A stretch of DNA of 64,000 nt, taken from contig NZ_QENZ01000004.1 in assembly GCF_003096835.1 (NCBI RefSeq), positions 1 through 64,000 of the forward strand. The letters are read 5' to 3'. The stretch's first letter is position 1. Each line of letters opens with the position of its first letter. The position numbers and the translations under genes were made by a program. Of this stretch, positions 606 through 16,824 are shown piece after piece. The DNA comes from Balneicella halophila. GTDB lineage: Bacteria; Bacteroidota; Bacteroidia; Bacteroidales; Balneicellaceae. The notes under the pieces are model-generated. The model was not told the origin of the DNA, did no database searches, and was given only the letters and a program-made list of their open reading frames with translations.

Positions 606-2760
606 TTACAACTCCCATATAACACCAAAATAAATGGTGCGTTTTCCATAAGAATCATAGAATTTCTTCGAGAAATCCTTGTTATAATAAATTCCACTTT
701 GATTGTTTATGTTAAAAATGTTGGTTATGGACAAAAAAGGAATAATAGCACCGTCGTTATTGAGAGGTGTGTATCGACTGTATCCTAAATCAATTTTATT
801 GTAATTTTCTAATTGTTGGCTATTAATTATTTCACTTAATAGTGGAATTTGATACTTAAAACCCGGTTTAGTGATGATTTCTTTAATGGGTGTATAGTAA
901 CTTCCAGGGTGCGTTATGTAGCTAAGAGAGATAGAACCCCACTTTAGTGTAATATATTGCAATGCTACTTTTGTTAAGTAATTAAAATCGTATTTCCCAT
1001 TAAATTCTTTGTTGCCTTCTTGTTGTTTTTGATTGATAAACGAATTGGATATCGTAAATTTTAACTGATCAGTAAGAAGGTATTTTAAGTAAGTTTCTAC
1101 CCCGAATGTTTTTACCTTATCTACTGAAGTAAAATAATCAAAAGCTTGTTTCCCTTTTTCTTGTTTATAATATACAGAACTTTTAAATCCTATCTTTTTT
1201 CTAATAATTGAATAATCAATTGCCAACTGCTTACTTGTTAACAATGTGAATTGTTTATTGTAATAATTTGGCGTTGCATAACTAACTTTCATAATTTCCA
1301 AGACTCATCATGACAGACTGTTTTTCATCAAAATTGTATTTCATTCCGAACTGTGCATTCCAACGTTGAGTTTGATTGTTTATAGGAATATTAGCTCGTA
1401 ATGCTGCAGAAAAGGAGAGTTTGTCAGACATTGCATAATCACTATACGCATAAATATCTGCCATATGTTTCGAAATCTCATCCTTAGAAAGTTCTTTTGG
1501 GTCTTCGGGTGCCATTGCAAAAGGGTAGATAGGAATACTATCATTAAAACGGTTTTTATGACAATCATAAGAAATACCTGTTTGTAAATTTATTTTATCT
1601 GACAGTTGACTTTTGAAGTTTACCGAAGTATAGATTTGTTGTACTTTCTTCTTAGATTCGATACTTCCGTAATTCAAATCCTGATTAGAGTGGCATATAC
1701 CTGTATTAACACTTAGTACTCCTTTTGGAGTATAATAATTCAAGTTATTTACAGAAAAGAAACGTTTCTTTTTTGCATTCGCTTCTCCACTATAATTCAA
1801 ACTGTGTACATTGACTTTAAAATCCTCCGATACTAAATAATTATAGGAATTAATTTCTACTCTTTTCCCTAACTTATAATGAACGTTACATCCTATATCC
1901 TTAGTATGGAAAGACTTTAGGTTCGGTAAGTTCTTTTGCTGCATCTTAACAAATGCTTTTGAGTTATTGTAATTTCCATAGAACTGCAAAAAATTGTTTT
2001 CGTTATTTTTTATCTTCTGTGAGAGAAAAAAGCCTATAGCACCTATAGAAAGTGAGAGTTGCTACTGATTTTCAGGAAGTCGCTTTAGTGTTTGTATCTC
2101 TACAAGTCCCGCACTGCTATTGCCATAGGTAAGAGGCGGGTTGCTGGCATAGACATATTCTTTGTCAATAACTTCCGTACTGAACAAACTAAAAAATCCT
2201 TGGTTATTTAGTTGGCTACTTCGTACCGGAGTATAAACAGGAACGCCATTAAGTATTACGCGTGTGCGGTCGGGAGAAGTGCCTCGTAAAGAAGGATTAG
2301 CTGTTTCATCAATAGTAGTAGATGCCGGCATTAAAGTAATAGCCTTCAAACCATCAGCTTGTGCAACGGGATTAAAGTATATATCTAATTTTTTAATTTT
2401 GGTCACTGAAAACTTTTGTGAAATAGGGTCTTTCGCTTTAATGATGACCTCTCTCAGCGTTTGGCTATCTTCTTTCAAGACAATAGTCATTGATTTGTTA
2501 GTTAAATCTGATGACAATTTTACTTCTTTAGTTTGGTAGCCAATAAATGAGAAGACTAAGATTCCAGTACTTTCCTTTAGTTGCAGGTTAAAATTTCCAT
2601 CAAAATTAGTCGAAGTACCTAATTCGGATTGTGTTTTTTTATAGATATTCACTGCAAAGATCGGTTGTCCTTTTTTATCTACTACTTTTCCTTTCAGTTG
2701 AACTTGTGCAAAGCTCTGACTTAGAATCAAGCAAAAGAATATGATTAATTTCCATTTCAT
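606..2760 (-). pseudogene. TonB-dependent receptor, broken by one nonsense and one frameshift
   Basis: As one reading it would be about 718 aa, a normal length for an outer-membrane TonB-dependent receptor. The N-terminus has a signal peptide ending SFAQ, then a carboxypeptidase-regulatory-like domain (about 20-105) and a plug domain with the NPSLRG and ILNGVPVY elements (about 105-230). An in-frame TAG at 2062-2064 interrupts the chain just after the plug; the same frame then stays open into barrel sequence (LSLSIGAIGFF, then LQFYGNY). Near 1285-1300 the frame shifts; GNY is followed in the next frame by KVSYATPNYYN and runs to a typical barrel end (IYFGVIWEL). It lies 2 bp after a TPR-like gene and belongs to a decayed four-gene module. 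The substrate is unknown. Confidence 0.85.
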
Positions 2761-2762
2761 AA

Positions 2763-3514
2763 TTATTTGTCTTTTAGCTCAGTGATTAATTGATTCAGAA
2801 GATAATTTTCAGGATATTTCTTCACCGCTTCCTTGTGATATCTTTTGGCCTTTTCCCAATCCTTTTTACGGATATACCAGCTAACCAATAATTCATAGGA
2901 CTCTTGTTTTCCCCAAGAAGGAAGCATACTGTTTTTTACCTTTTGATCTGGTAATGAGATTGCTTTTAAAAGATATTCTTCAGAATGTTTGCCACCGCCA
3001 TATTGTTCTGGCGTATAGAAGTCATTACTGGCGAGGGCATAGTAAGCTCTTAAGTTTGTACTATCTTTTTCGATGGCTAACTTGCCATTTTTTTCAATTT
3101 GACGAGAAAGAAATATTATTTTTATCATATTTTTGAACTGAATGTCAAATCCTTGAGTAAGAGAAAGTAAAGCATAATCTTCTGATGTTTTATTTTCTAT
3201 ACTTTCTAATATATTAACTGCCTTGTCAGCATGTTTTTCTGAGTTTTTTTATCATTTTGTGAGATATAATAGATAGCCGTATAGTACTCACTGTAAGCCT
3301 GCCAGTATTTGAAAATCTTTTGTTGATGATCGTTGTATTGTTGTTCCAATTTATCATTTAATTCAAGTAAATTTTTTGAGTCTTTATTTTCTTGAGCCTT
3401 AATGAATGTTTGTAATACTTGTTCTTGAATGTTCTTGTCACGAGTTTGTGCATAGCTATTTCCTGTACAAATTAGTAGGATAGTAACGATGATATATTTG
3501 ATAATTGTTTTCAT
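2763..3514 (-). pseudogene. Secreted TPR-like helical protein, frameshifted in a 7-base homopolymer
   Basis: The N-terminal part starts MKTIIKYIIVTIL with a signal peptide ending NSYAQ and runs to about 3240. The frame is then lost in a run of seven T (3244-3250; A7 in the mRNA). In the next frame the protein continues without a stop (SEKHADKAVNILESIE, later LRAYYALASNDFY and DWEKAKRYHKEAVKKYPEN), giving about 250 aa in total with TPR-like helices. Genes like this often precede TonB receptors in Bacteroidota. The shift may be a real mutation, a slippage-switchable site or a sequencing error. The ATG at 3514 is preferred over the upstream TTG because the signal peptide starts there. Confidence 0.75.
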
Positions 3515-3546: not shown

Positions 3547-3563
3547 AGTTTATTTTATAAACT
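3547..3563. promoter_or_regulatory. Palindromic operator upstream of TPR/TonB genes
   Basis: Perfect inverted repeat AGTTTAT-TTT-ATAAACT, 33 bp upstream of the TPR-like start. The same 17 bp, extended to 22 bp by AAATT, recur at 4505-4526 upstream of the membrane-protein/regulator pair. Their placement around a winged-helix regulator gene suggests they are its binding sites. Confidence 0.7.
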
Positions 3564-3604
3564 AAATTGTTTAAAAAATGAAGCATTCAATGAATACCTC
3601 AAAA

Positions 3605-3886
3605 TTATTTGATATATTCTTTTAAAGCATTTACATATTCTTCAAAAGCGTTTAGTCCTTTTGGAGTAAGGTGAGCAGTAGTATTTGGGTAATTGTTTTT
3701 AAAAGTTTTCTTTACTGTTAAATACCCGGCTTCCTCCAATTTCTGAATTTGTACGCTTATATTTCCAGCAGTAGCTTTAGTTACTTCTTTTATATACGTA
3801 AATTCAGCTTTTTCATCAGAAACCAATAATGACATGATAGCCAGTCTCAGTTGCGAATGTAAAAGCGGATTGAGTTTTTTAAACAT
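3605..3886 (-). CDS. Winged-helix transcriptional regulator (MarR/HTH_34-like)
   Basis: A 93-aa one-domain DNA-binding protein. The sequence PLLHSQLRLAIMSLL, the recognition-helix region (TKATAGNISVQIQKLEEAGYL) and the wing ending HLTPKGLNAFEEYV match the small winged-helix regulators of Bacteroidota. There is no ligand domain. It overlaps the end of the preceding membrane-protein gene by 8 bp, so the two are probably translationally coupled. It is the only intact gene of the module and is the likely binder of the two identical palindromes on either side of it. Confidence 0.85.
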   Translation of the reverse strand: MFKKLNPLLHSQLRLAIMSLLVSDEKAEFTYIKEVTKATAGNISVQIQKLEEAGYLTVKKTFKNNYPNTTAHLTPKGLNAFEEYVNALKEYIK

Positions 3887-4461
3887 GACGACGTTTTTTA
3901 TGAGCGCTATAAAGTTGAATGCCTGGTATAAGAAAAATAAGTAACCCTACACCTGCTGCAACTAAAGAATGATATATTCCAGGAATAAATATTGAAAAAT
4001 AAGTTAATATTGTTCCAAAAATGGTGAGTGTAATCCACAAGCTGTTTTTTAAACTTAGAGCAGACGCCATAGATGCAAAACAGAATGGCAGAAAAAGAAC
4101 TGCTGTAAAACCAATGCCAAATTTATTTCCAAATACAAAACCTTTAAGAATGCTAAGCAACCAGCATTCCCCATATCCAACCAGTCAAGTCAATACTTTC
4201 ATTGTTTTTGGCTTTCTTGTGATTGTCTCTAAAACCAGCAATGAATGTAATAATAGATCCTGGTATCATAGTAAACATCCATACGTATTTTATTAGATTA
4301 TACTGTTCCATTTGTAACATTACGAAGTGAGATGTACCCGCAATTATAAAGAGTACTCCCCAAAAAAGTTAAAAGAAGCCATTTTCCTCATACTTTTGTT
4401 TTCGCTGATCAATAATGCTTTGGATAATCTTAAAACTATCCTGTGTGCTTAAATTTTCCAT
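3879..4461 (-). pseudogene. Membrane protein, broken by a nonsense codon and a frameshift
   Basis: Reading from the ATG at 4461 gives MENLSTQDSFKIIQSIIDQ, then after about 30 codons an in-frame TAA within the first hydrophobic segment (NGFF-stop-LFWGVLFIIAG). The same frame then continues through a second segment (KYVWMFTMIPGSIITFIAG) to WIWGMLVA. Near 4160 a frameshift joins it to LSILKGFVFGNKFGIGFTAV and further membrane helices ending in AHKKRRHV. The intact form would have about five or six transmembrane helices. This kind of gene commonly pairs with a small winged-helix regulator; its function is unknown to me. Confidence 0.75.
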
Positions 4462-4492
4462 GATGAATATTTTTAGTGTTATAAATATAATG

Positions 4493-4500
4493 CAAATATA
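4493..4500 (-). promoter_or_regulatory. Promoter -7 element of the membrane/regulator unit
   Basis: On the minus strand this reads TATATTTG, matching the Bacteroidota TAnnTTTG element, 31 bp before the ATG at 4461. The palindrome at 4505-4521 ends 4 bp upstream of it, inside the -7/-33 spacer, where a bound repressor would block RNA polymerase. Confidence 0.55.
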
Positions 4501-4504
4501 GAGT

Positions 4505-4521
4505 AGTTTATTTTATAAACT
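4505..4521. promoter_or_regulatory. Palindromic operator upstream of membrane/regulator genes
   Basis: Second copy of AGTTTAT-TTT-ATAAACT, identical to that at 3547-3563 including the AAATT flank. It lies in the promoter spacer, implying autorepression by the winged-helix protein encoded in the same unit. Confidence 0.7.
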
Positions 4522-4608
4522 AAATTTTTTCATTATTTTATTCAAATAATTTCTTGCCATCTCATTAAAAAATCTTTGAATATCCTTGTCAATATTAGAT
4601 TTGATTGT

Positions 4609-12755: not shown

Positions 12756-15700
12756 CTAGTATATCAAATAAAAATAACCGGATTTCTCTATCAATTTTCC
12801 GTTTTTATCGTGGAATTCTATAATATAAAAGTAAACACCTGCAGGTAGTTTTTTGTTCAAAAACGATGATTTCCCATATCCTTTAAAGTATTTTTTATTG
12901 TATCCATAATTTTCCTCACTAAATACAACTTTACCTGACTTGCTGAAAATAGAAACTTTATTCGAAGGATAGTTTTTTAAGAACTCTAGTTTAAGTATGT
13001 CGTTAATATTGTCACCATTAGGATTAACTATTTGTGTAAACTCTATTTTACACTTAGAACTAATATCTGGTACGCAAGGATCATTATCATCTACGTCTAT
13101 CTGATCAACTAAACCATCATCATCTTTATCTAAAATATTACTCTCAAGAGCATCAATAACACCATCACTGTCTGTATCTATTGGGTTTAAAATATTACTA
13201 ACTTCTTCAAGATCTACTATATTATCATGATCTGTGTCCTTATTATTAGGATCTGTTCCAAGCAAGCTCTCATTTTCATTAGTAATTCCATCATTATCAG
13301 AATCACAAGGGGAGCATTATTATCCTTTATGACTGTTATAGTTGAGCTAGCAACTTGACTACAGGGCATATTGCTTCCAATAGTATAAATGTAGATATTT
13401 CCTTCATTTGTCCACATACCACCTTCATCTGGGTTTCCTTGTAATGCATTAAATAAGTTCTCTTCCGTAGGTGTTTCCTTTTTGCAAATGGTTATCGTAG
13501 TACTAATTCCTGGATTAAAAGTGACTTTGTCATTAACTGTTACCTCATGGTAACCGTCTTTGCACACGTTTCATCAGGAGTAAAGATGTATTCTGTCGTT
13601 TTGGTGTTGTCAAATTGAGGGCTCCAAGTTCCTGTAATACCATTTTTAGAAGTAGTCGGCAAACTAAAATCAGTTCCTTTGCAGACGGCAGGAATTTGCT
13701 CAAAAGCAGGAGTGACTTTTTCATTGGCCATTACTGTCATAGTAACGGTCTTTGCACACGTTTCATCAGGAGTAAAGGTGTATTCTGTTGTTTTGGTATT
13801 ATCAGGCAGAGGACTCCAAGTTCCTGTAATGCCATTTGTTGAAGTAGTCGGCAAACTAAAATCAGTTCCTTTGCAGGCAGCAGGTATTTGCTCAAAAACA
13901 GGAGTAATTTTCGGAAGAATTGTGATAGTTGTTTTCTCCGGTAATGCATTTTCACATTCTAATAAAGGGATCCTAATATTTATTAGGGTAATAACTTGTG
14001 AAGTAGTGGCGTTATTAATGGTTATTGTGGCTTTCCCTTCAGAATTTAAAGTTGTAGAAGATGTATCTCCATTTATTTCATATGTTACCACAGAAGAGGC
14101 TGTTCCTATTATTTCAAATGTAGCATCTTCTCCAGCACATATTTCAGTTGCTGTATCACTTACATTGGCTTTTGGAGAACAATCTACAACTGTGAAATGC
14201 ACTCTGTTTGAGACTTCTTTATAAGTATCATTCGTAAAGATTGACATATAATAATTACCTGGTTCTTTAGGTAGATTTTTTGAAGGTATTGCAATACTTC
14301 CCTTGGACAAACCGTTAAAGTATGTATAGCAATAACCTGAATTTGGATTTGTGCTTTGGTCTGGAGTGTAACCCTCTTTATATATACCTATCCAATCTTT
14401 TATTATTCCGGGAGCATTCTCCCAATTAGGAGTGATCGTCTCATTGAGTTTATAGATACTTGGATTATCTTTTGTCCCTTGTCCTTTATCTAAAAATAGT
14501 TCGGTAATGATACCTTGCCCTACTTTGAAATTAACAATATTCCCTATTTGCATTTTTGATGTTATACCTTTCTCTATACTCCAAGCAGATGGGGTCACAA
14601 CTTCAATGTAAGTTTCTGCATAATAGTATCCTTTTTCTAAGCCGTTTATTGTGATGGTATTATTTTGTTGTTGACCAATATTTTCTATTTTTATCGGGGT
14701 AACCTTTCCTTTTTTGTAAACAGAAATATATCCTTTTACATCAGATTCTAATACAGGAGCATTGTTATATTGTAAAATCATTTCTTCTCCGGTATTGTAT
14801 TCTAATTTATTGGTAATTAATTTAATAATAGGTCCTACATAAAATGAGGGAGAATGAGCAATGTAACTATACGAACCATTTTTTGATAGATAGGCATAAT
14901 AAATACCCGGTGTAAAAGCATATTTTATATTCCCAGAGGCAGTACCTAGATTCTTAAAACTGATAGAACCATTTTCAATACCATTGGTATAATCCCATGC
15001 CCAAGAATAATTACTGCTACCAGCACTACCAGGTTTTTGCGAAGGAGTATAAATACCAACCCATGCATAAGGATTTATAGATGAATTAGAAAAGTTTGTA
15101 ATGATTTGGTCATCATGTAATTGATAATAAATTTTATCAGTAGAAAGTTCGGGAGTCGCTGGTGTGCTATTTGTTATAGTAAACGTTTTTATTTCGCTCC
15201 AATCTGACCATTCAAGATTTTTATCTCTTGTACGTGCTTTGATATAATAAGTTCCGTTGGAGAGGGTATATTCATCCGTCTTCTCTTCTGAACGTAATTT
15301 TAACTCTTTAATATCTACATTTTCGTTTTGGTTAACTGTTATGTCTTTTCTGTCTACTCTTCCAAACCAATTTTCAAAATCTCGATATATTTGTTTTTCT
15401 ATTCGAGCAAAATCCTCGGTTTTTGAGATGACAAATTCAGTACTGTTTAGTGTTTCATTTGTATTACTGCCAGGAATGAAATTTACAGAGGCATCAATGG
15501 GAAGATCTTTAGTATTATCGAGTGTTAGTGTTGGTTGCTCAGGTTTATTTTTATTTTTATATCTATGGAATGTGTCAATTAGTTTATCTTGTTCATAATA
15601 TCCATTAACAGTTCCTATAGAATAGGATTCAACATTAAAAGTGCCTTTATTTACGTCTATATCAACTATCTGATAAGCCCATTCTGTTAATGTCTTTTGT

Positions 15701-16824
15701 ATGTCTGGCATGTCTTCCTCTTTGCTATCTCCCCAATACTGATTCCAAGCTGTTCCCCCAGAAATAATGTGATAAACAGGTCTATCTTTCAATTGCCCCC
15801 GGCTGTATAGGTGATGGTGAGCGCCTATATGCATCACATATTTATCAAATTGTGCTAAATAGGGAACGGCTCTATCTCTAATAAAAAGATTGATATCTGT
15901 AGGATATTGTTCAGCACCATACGGTCTATGCCCTCCGGAGAGAATCCAGTCAACTGTAGGGGCATTATTTGCAGCTTCCATAATCCGTTGCATCCATTCA
16001 TATTGAGTATCTACTGTATTATTAAATTCAGTATCAAAACCTAAGTAGAGGATATTCCCGATTTGTTTAGCATAAAAGTTTTCAGTTCTGAATTTTGCTT
16101 CTGGATATAATTCAGGTTTATACAAAATCTCCTCCTCATCTAGAATAAAAAAATCCCTGTAGTAACCTATTTCTTTTTCACCTCCAAGACCTGCAACACC
16201 AAACATGGCACTCACCTCATGATTTCCAAGGAGTGTATGTATTGGAACATAAGGGGAGATTTCTTTGTTGTGGGCAAAATGTATATTCGCATATTGCGAG
16301 CAAGTTCCGGCATCTACTTAATCACCAACCATAAATATGCTTGTAACAGCATCGTCTGGAGACCCTGGTCCATATTTCTCTGTAATTTTCTTTTTAGCAG
16401 CTCTAACAAATTTTTCATATCGTTCATTGTTTAACTGATTGTCTCCAAGTATTAAAAGTCTGATATGACCATCCTGAGTAACAGCTTCTCCCGGGTTTGG
16501 CAAAGTTTTAAAGCTGAAAATATCAGAAGATAGATTTCCAGACATTACTTTATAATAATATTTAGTATTAGGTGCTAAGTTCTCTAGTTTTATAGAGTGA
16601 TAATTGTAGTTGCAAAAATCATCATATGAACCGATAACCTCATTCTCTAAATTATCTGGAGATGTTCCGTAAATAACTTTTGATGTCTCTTCAGAATAAA
16701 TCCAGTTAATATGTATAGAATTTGGTGATACAGCTTGCAGATATGGATCTATTTGAGAGAAACTATTAGTAATAAACAAGAATGTTATTAAACTAATCAG
16801 CAATGAAATTTTTTTACGAAACAT
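12756..16824 (-). pseudogene. Secreted metallophosphatase with Ig-like repeats and type IX secretion C-terminal domain, broken
   Basis: The whole reading is about 1350 aa. It has a signal peptide (ending NSFSQ), a purple-acid-phosphatase-like N-terminal beta domain (about 25-110), a calcineurin-like phosphoesterase domain (ILGDNQ; GNHE; SGGHRPYG; GAHHHLYSR), several Ig-like modules, a 64-residue repeat, Ca-binding thrombospondin-3-like repeats (DTDSDGVIDA) and a gliding-motility-type C-terminal sorting domain (NPNGDNINDIL). Three lesions are visible: an in-frame TAA at 16318-16320 inside the metal-binding motif (MVGD-stop-VDAG, where Gln is usual), a 1-base loss near 13549, and a frame change near 13309. 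All coding after the first lesion is otherwise recognisable. Confidence 0.88.
13553..13880 (-). repeat. 192-bp imperfect tandem repeat within the phosphatase pseudogene
   Basis: The segment TGCACACGTTTCATCAGGAG recurs at 13561 and 13753, a period of 192 bp (64 codons). The encoded unit runs from EQIPAACKGTDFSLPTTS to DETCAKTVTM, with a further partial unit at each end. These are adhesin-like Ig repeats. Confidence 0.8.

Follow-up and report, generated by a model that had tools for sequence, protein, structure and literature searches.

Twin palindromes bordering an HTH_34 winged-helix gene of Balneicella halophila are predicted local operators of its product

Two identical palindromes bordering a small winged-helix gene of Balneicella halophila are, with strong support, predicted to be binding sites of the 93-aa HTH_34 protein encoded between them. 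They are located in the window analyzed here, i.e., the first 64,000 nucleotides of contig NZ_QENZ01000004.1 (assembly GCF_003096835.1). Very probably, they serve as HTH_34 operators for autorepression at site 1 and control of a third gene at site 2, with presumed relief of repression by a co-encoded membrane protein. Each site comprises a 17-bp palindrome with the arms AGTTTAT and ATAAACT on either side of a central TTT (AGTTTATTTTATAAACT; 3547-3563 and 4505-4521), followed by AAATT, which results in identical 22-bp blocks 958 bp apart; the flanks beyond these blocks are dissimilar between the two sites compared. All genes of the module are encoded on the minus strand in the order (starting from operator 1) membrane protein, HTH_34 regulator, operator 2, TPR-like protein and TonB receptor (Table 1). 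Both palindromes lie on the promoter side of minus-strand genes, and to this extent the original prediction of sites upstream of two transcription units holds, the units themselves consisting largely of broken genes.

Table 1 Features of the HTH_34 module (window positions)
Feature	Position	Strand	Remarks
Winged-helix regulator (Pfam PF13601, HTH_34; 93 aa)	3605..3886	minus	intact ORF
Multi-helix membrane protein gene	3879..4461	minus	in-frame stop and frame break; 8-nt overlap with regulator start
Secreted TPR-like protein gene	2763..3514	minus	frame broken at ~3248-3266
TonB-dependent receptor gene (CarbopepD_reg_2 + Plug)	606..2760	minus	in-frame stop near 2060, frame break near 1284
Operator 1	4505..4526	.	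palindrome 4505-4521 plus AAATT flank; matched at the same place in 40/44 orthologue loci
Operator 2	3547..3568	.	palindrome and flank identical to operator 1; regulator stop codon on one side, TPR gene on the other
-7 promoter box TATATTTG	4493-4500	minus	4 nt past operator 1; same spacing in 35/45 upstream sites
TATATCAA	3535-3542	minus	-7-box register after operator 2, yet non-canonical

The window contains two exact matches to AGTTTATNNNATAAACT as compared to none in 100 dinucleotide shuffles, and the whole 2.09-Mb genome likewise contains two, both in the module (at 3547 and 4505). The coordinates, the shuffles and the genome-wide count thus confirm the predicted twin palindromes with their common AAATT flank. 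With up to 3 mismatches allowed, 19 matches were obtained in the window versus 13.2 expected; this near-expected number, lacking a clear excess, argues against a family of weaker palindrome copies in the window.

The originally proposed regulon was not borne out, since the exact palindrome is confined to the module and a search of the genome for copies upstream of other genes retrieved none. Across 99 genomes, the composite of operator and -7 box was matched exactly in 16, once in each, and 15 of these composites are situated ~0.1-1.6 kb upstream of an HTH_34 gene on the same contig; a multi-gene regulon would require several unlinked loci per genome to share this arrangement, which was not observed. 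The palindrome pair is accordingly best described as a putative local autoregulatory operator. A one-mismatch palindrome of this genome inside an RND-efflux coding sequence was treated as chance. The one-mismatch palindrome G000:C5:252419 (L004 1501), scoring 8.6 with the PWM versus 28.7 and 30.4 for the two sites, is also probably due to chance; the adjoining sequence resembles a cobalamin riboswitch, with a gene for an ABC substrate-binding protein downstream.

The regulator matches HTH_34 over the complete profile (1-80/80; E 9.2e-32, 109.5 bits vs a Pfam cut-off of 27) and hence belongs to this family. Its AlphaFold (AF2) model (pLDDT 95) displays a winged helix of the order H-E-H-H-E-E-H, with a recognition helix at approximately residues 40-52 and Thr39 immediately before it. 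The closest solved structure by both sequence and fold is PH1061 (1UB9; TM 0.85), other near folds being DNA binders of the MarR, PadR and ArsR types. Assignment as an ArsR metalloregulator was rejected (HTH_5 19.3 bits vs a cut-off of 22; NF033788 23.4 vs 55), with HTH_5 and MarR_2 both scoring under their Pfam cut-offs, and PADLOC yielded weak matches of the winged helix and nothing else.

Comparison of the operators of orthologues, suggested in the original prediction as a check, drew on 99 genomes of the order together with GTDB contigs. With a regulator identity of 53% or more required, the close set amounts to 46 loci including the window; in 44 of these, the available upstream sequence suffices for the comparison. 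A matching palindrome is present upstream of the membrane-protein gene in 40 of the 44 testable loci and just past the regulator stop in 15 close loci, and none was found elsewhere in the same loci (197,569 bases). These sites still stand upon leave-one-out scoring, and their consensus is approximately TTTGGTTTAT-AWT-ATAAACTA. With the window palindrome alone as query (≤1 mismatch), 23 matches were obtained in 12 kb of expected positions versus 3 in 260 kb elsewhere. Four loci are devoid of a site near the gene: in L012 the site is located further upstream (seen in L101), L007 has a weaker site further upstream in its genome, and in L008 and L043 no site was found.

Several loci depart from the simple arrangement. 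In some Bacteroidota, represented by L101 (2483-2978) and L103 (585-1092), a gene for a small secreted protein (DUF2141 in L103) separates the operator from the membrane gene, and L103 carries two tandem operators. Two operators ~80-90 bp apart are present upstream of the membrane gene in L019, L023 and L060, with a -7 box after the distal one only.

The motif TAnnTTTG, the -7 box of Bacteroidota (as cited in PMC7366714), starts exactly 4 nt past the 17-mer in 35 of 45 upstream sites as compared to 1.1% in 20-nt control windows, and in many loci TTTG directly precedes the palindrome, i.e., at the place expected for the -33 box. Given this fixed gap and the position of TTTG, operator 1 is predicted to fill the -33/-7 spacer in the promoter that drives the membrane-protein/regulator operon, in support of the repressor position originally assigned to the 4505 site. 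A conserved palindrome thus overlaps the promoter of the regulator's own operon, as is expected for an autorepressor operator. That the palindromes represent chance, transposon ends or an RNA hairpin or terminator might be considered in view of the AT-rich DNA and of two sites bracketing a gene pair like repeat ends. This explanation deserves almost no credence, however, since the exact match is absent from the shuffles, the sites recur at a constant distance from the promoter box in many distant loci, many orthologue loci possess one copy only, unlike paired ends, and the A+T-rich arms do not resemble a terminator stem.

Co-location alone cannot name the binding protein, and in principle the palindromes flanking the HTH_34 gene could serve another regulator whose gene lies at a different locus. 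Evidence on this point comes from the half-sites, which vary in matched pairs (GTTTAT with ATAAAC, GTTAAT with ATTAAC, and in two loci GTTTGT with ACAAAC or GCAAAC). Residue 39 of the regulator is Ala wherever a GTTAA half-site is present (13/13 loci) and Thr wherever it is absent (29/29). On a tree calculated from regulator and membrane protein, with the column of residue 39 left out, half-site class and residue 39 each need three changes and differ together in three of three independent pairs; a single Ala39 clade is rejected (p 5e-5), while a formal phylogenetic sign test lacks power with three switches (p 0.25). Residue 90 follows the half-site class nearly as well (12/13), such that residue 39 is the best, though not the sole, candidate specificity residue. 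It is this co-variation that ties the palindrome to the HTH_34 protein rather than to another regulator. With the half-site class switching three times together with residue 39 and the exact composite residing beside an HTH_34 gene in 15 of 16 genomes, a different regulator is very improbable. Assignment of the palindromes to the 93-aa protein, as originally proposed, is thus supported by footprinting, the spacing to the -7 box, the paired half-site changes and the co-variation with residue 39.

The counterpart of operator 2 is found at +297 to +323 from the regulator start in the 15 close loci possessing it (window included). None of these 15 second sites is followed by TAnnTTTG, so that a separate promoter at site 2, as implied by the two transcription units of the original prediction, finds no support in this class. 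Instead, site 2 may sit within one operon, where it could block read-through or cooperate with site 1. The passenger genes vary between loci and include the TPR/TonB receptor pair, transglutaminase-like genes (some with an FGE-sulfatase domain), DUF2306, and DUF2141 in the interval from operator to membrane gene.

An ORF of more than 120 aa ends at the regulator start in 50 loci. The membrane protein could not be assigned to any Pfam or NCBIfam family; its model is all-helical, and a fold search against solved structures gave no match better than E 0.8. Intact membrane-protein orthologues are encoded in loci L038, L051, L056 and L015, and L051 also harbours an intact 716-aa TonB receptor homologue. 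L051 and L056 (Flavobacteriaceae), L038 (Saprospiraceae) and L015 share the gene order of the module, and within the extent of these loci the frames are open.

In B. halophila, by comparison, five frame lesions are distributed over three of the four module genes, with the regulator and both operators being intact and operator 1 retaining its promoter; the original prediction had overlooked that the regulated genes are broken. The lesions may reflect a decaying TonB-receptor module or else a local assembly error. Since all three target genes are broken, the circuit in this genome should be a relic or reduced to the regulator. Chances are about even that the locus is dead here, i.e., that every gene under control is a pseudogene and the two sites are relics that no longer function, which is compatible with their being operators. 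The restriction of the lesions to the module speaks in favour of a dead locus, as aspA (aspartate ammonia-lyase) and the cobalamin genes next to it have open frames free of such lesions. Conversely, the regulator ORF, both operators and the promoter of operator 1 persist, and assembly indels are a possible source of the lesions; intactness of the regulator proves little, however, because a 282-bp gene would by our estimate escape five lesions with a chance of ~0.7. Elsewhere in the window (12756-16215), a large surface-protein gene seems to be interrupted by frame breaks, its overlapping minus-strand pieces (12756-13265, 13217-13567 and 13540-16215) lying in different frames.

The sites, their conservation, the promoter overlap with fixed -7-box spacing and the co-variation with residue 39 constitute the computed part of the model proposed at the outset. 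The HTH_34 protein would bind as a homodimer, each GTTTAT half-site accommodating one recognition helix. At site 1, the bound protein would cover the -33/-7 region and thereby repress the operon of membrane protein and regulator, whereas at site 2 it would add control of the third gene, here the TPR protein and then the TonB receptor. The co-encoded membrane protein is most likely a sensor of some envelope condition that would lift the repression, by analogy with SdpI.

In distant HTH_34 relatives (34-40% identity), the regulator gene is again preceded by a membrane gene. An inverted-repeat search upstream of these distant loci retrieved no common repeat; an element CAAAGTACTTTT, spotted by eye in the upstream sequences and then tested by pattern match, is arranged as -7 box, N5, CAAAGTACTTTT and has a palindromic core (AAAGTACTTT). 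In the 99 genomes, most matches to this element adjoin distant HTH_34 genes, and several distant loci carry it twice, with one copy ahead of the membrane gene and another behind the regulator. In L097, L098 and L105, the latter copy precedes a CreD-like gene (PF06123; E 1.3e-153 in L105, the one scanned). Pairs of HTH_34 and membrane-protein genes bearing CAAAGTACTTTT occur in L097-L100 and L104-L106 and also in L027-L034. As each subfamily has its flanking palindromes, the twin-operator design appears to be common to both, the operator sequences being different.

The position of operator 1 in the promoter spacer, and not over the start site, would also suit an activator that bends or untwists the DNA like the MerR type. 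Activation by the HTH_34 protein is nevertheless unlikely, since the protein is a MarR/ArsR-like winged helix of the HTH_34 family rather than a MerR protein, and in the sister class the palindrome lies downstream of the -7 box, a place suited to repression.

One may speculate, with more doubt than confidence, that HTH_34 and membrane protein form a widespread, undescribed one-operon membrane-signalling cassette of Bacteroidota and Ignavibacteriota. Such a cassette would comprise (i) flanking operators of at least two codes (GTTWAT-N3-ATWAAC and AAAGTACTTT), (ii) exchangeable envelope genes (TonB receptor, transglutaminase-like, DUF2141, CreD), and (iii) the membrane protein as a signal-gated antirepressor. 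In a limited search, the literature on HTH_34/PF13601 yielded no description of an operator, and nothing relevant turned up for creD in combination with winged-helix regulators. The present operator assignment gives the common and apparently unstudied HTH_34 family a named putative operator and a candidate specificity residue (39), and several unexplained envelope genes of Bacteroidota, creD among them, would be brought under one type of self-contained, possibly membrane-linked switch.

Among known systems, sdpRI of Bacillus subtilis encodes an autorepressor (SdpR) and a polytopic membrane receptor (SdpI) in one operon, with the membrane protein sequestering the repressor when ligand is present (PMC1626106). 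The window module likewise combines a small presumed autorepressor with a co-encoded polytopic membrane protein under operon-local control; it differs in that the membrane gene comes first, and homology to SdpI is not claimed in view of the missing Pfam family and solved-fold match. Within PF13601, the regulator is a full-length family match with 1UB9 ranking top in sequence and fold, the latter being titled only as a regulator homologue. Autorepressors of the MarR, ArsR and PadR types share the fold and the presumed autorepression via a palindrome overlapping their own promoter, whereas the sequence of the window protein belongs to HTH_34. Closest in layout are the distant HTH_34 loci with membrane protein and creD (L097, L098, L105 and L106), which display the succession palindrome, membrane gene, HTH_34 gene, second palindrome (in several) and envelope gene. 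They differ in a regulator 35-40% identical to that of the window, in the CAAAGTACTTTT operator being placed after the -7 box, in CreD (PF06123) as target, and in a second site with its own -7-like box.
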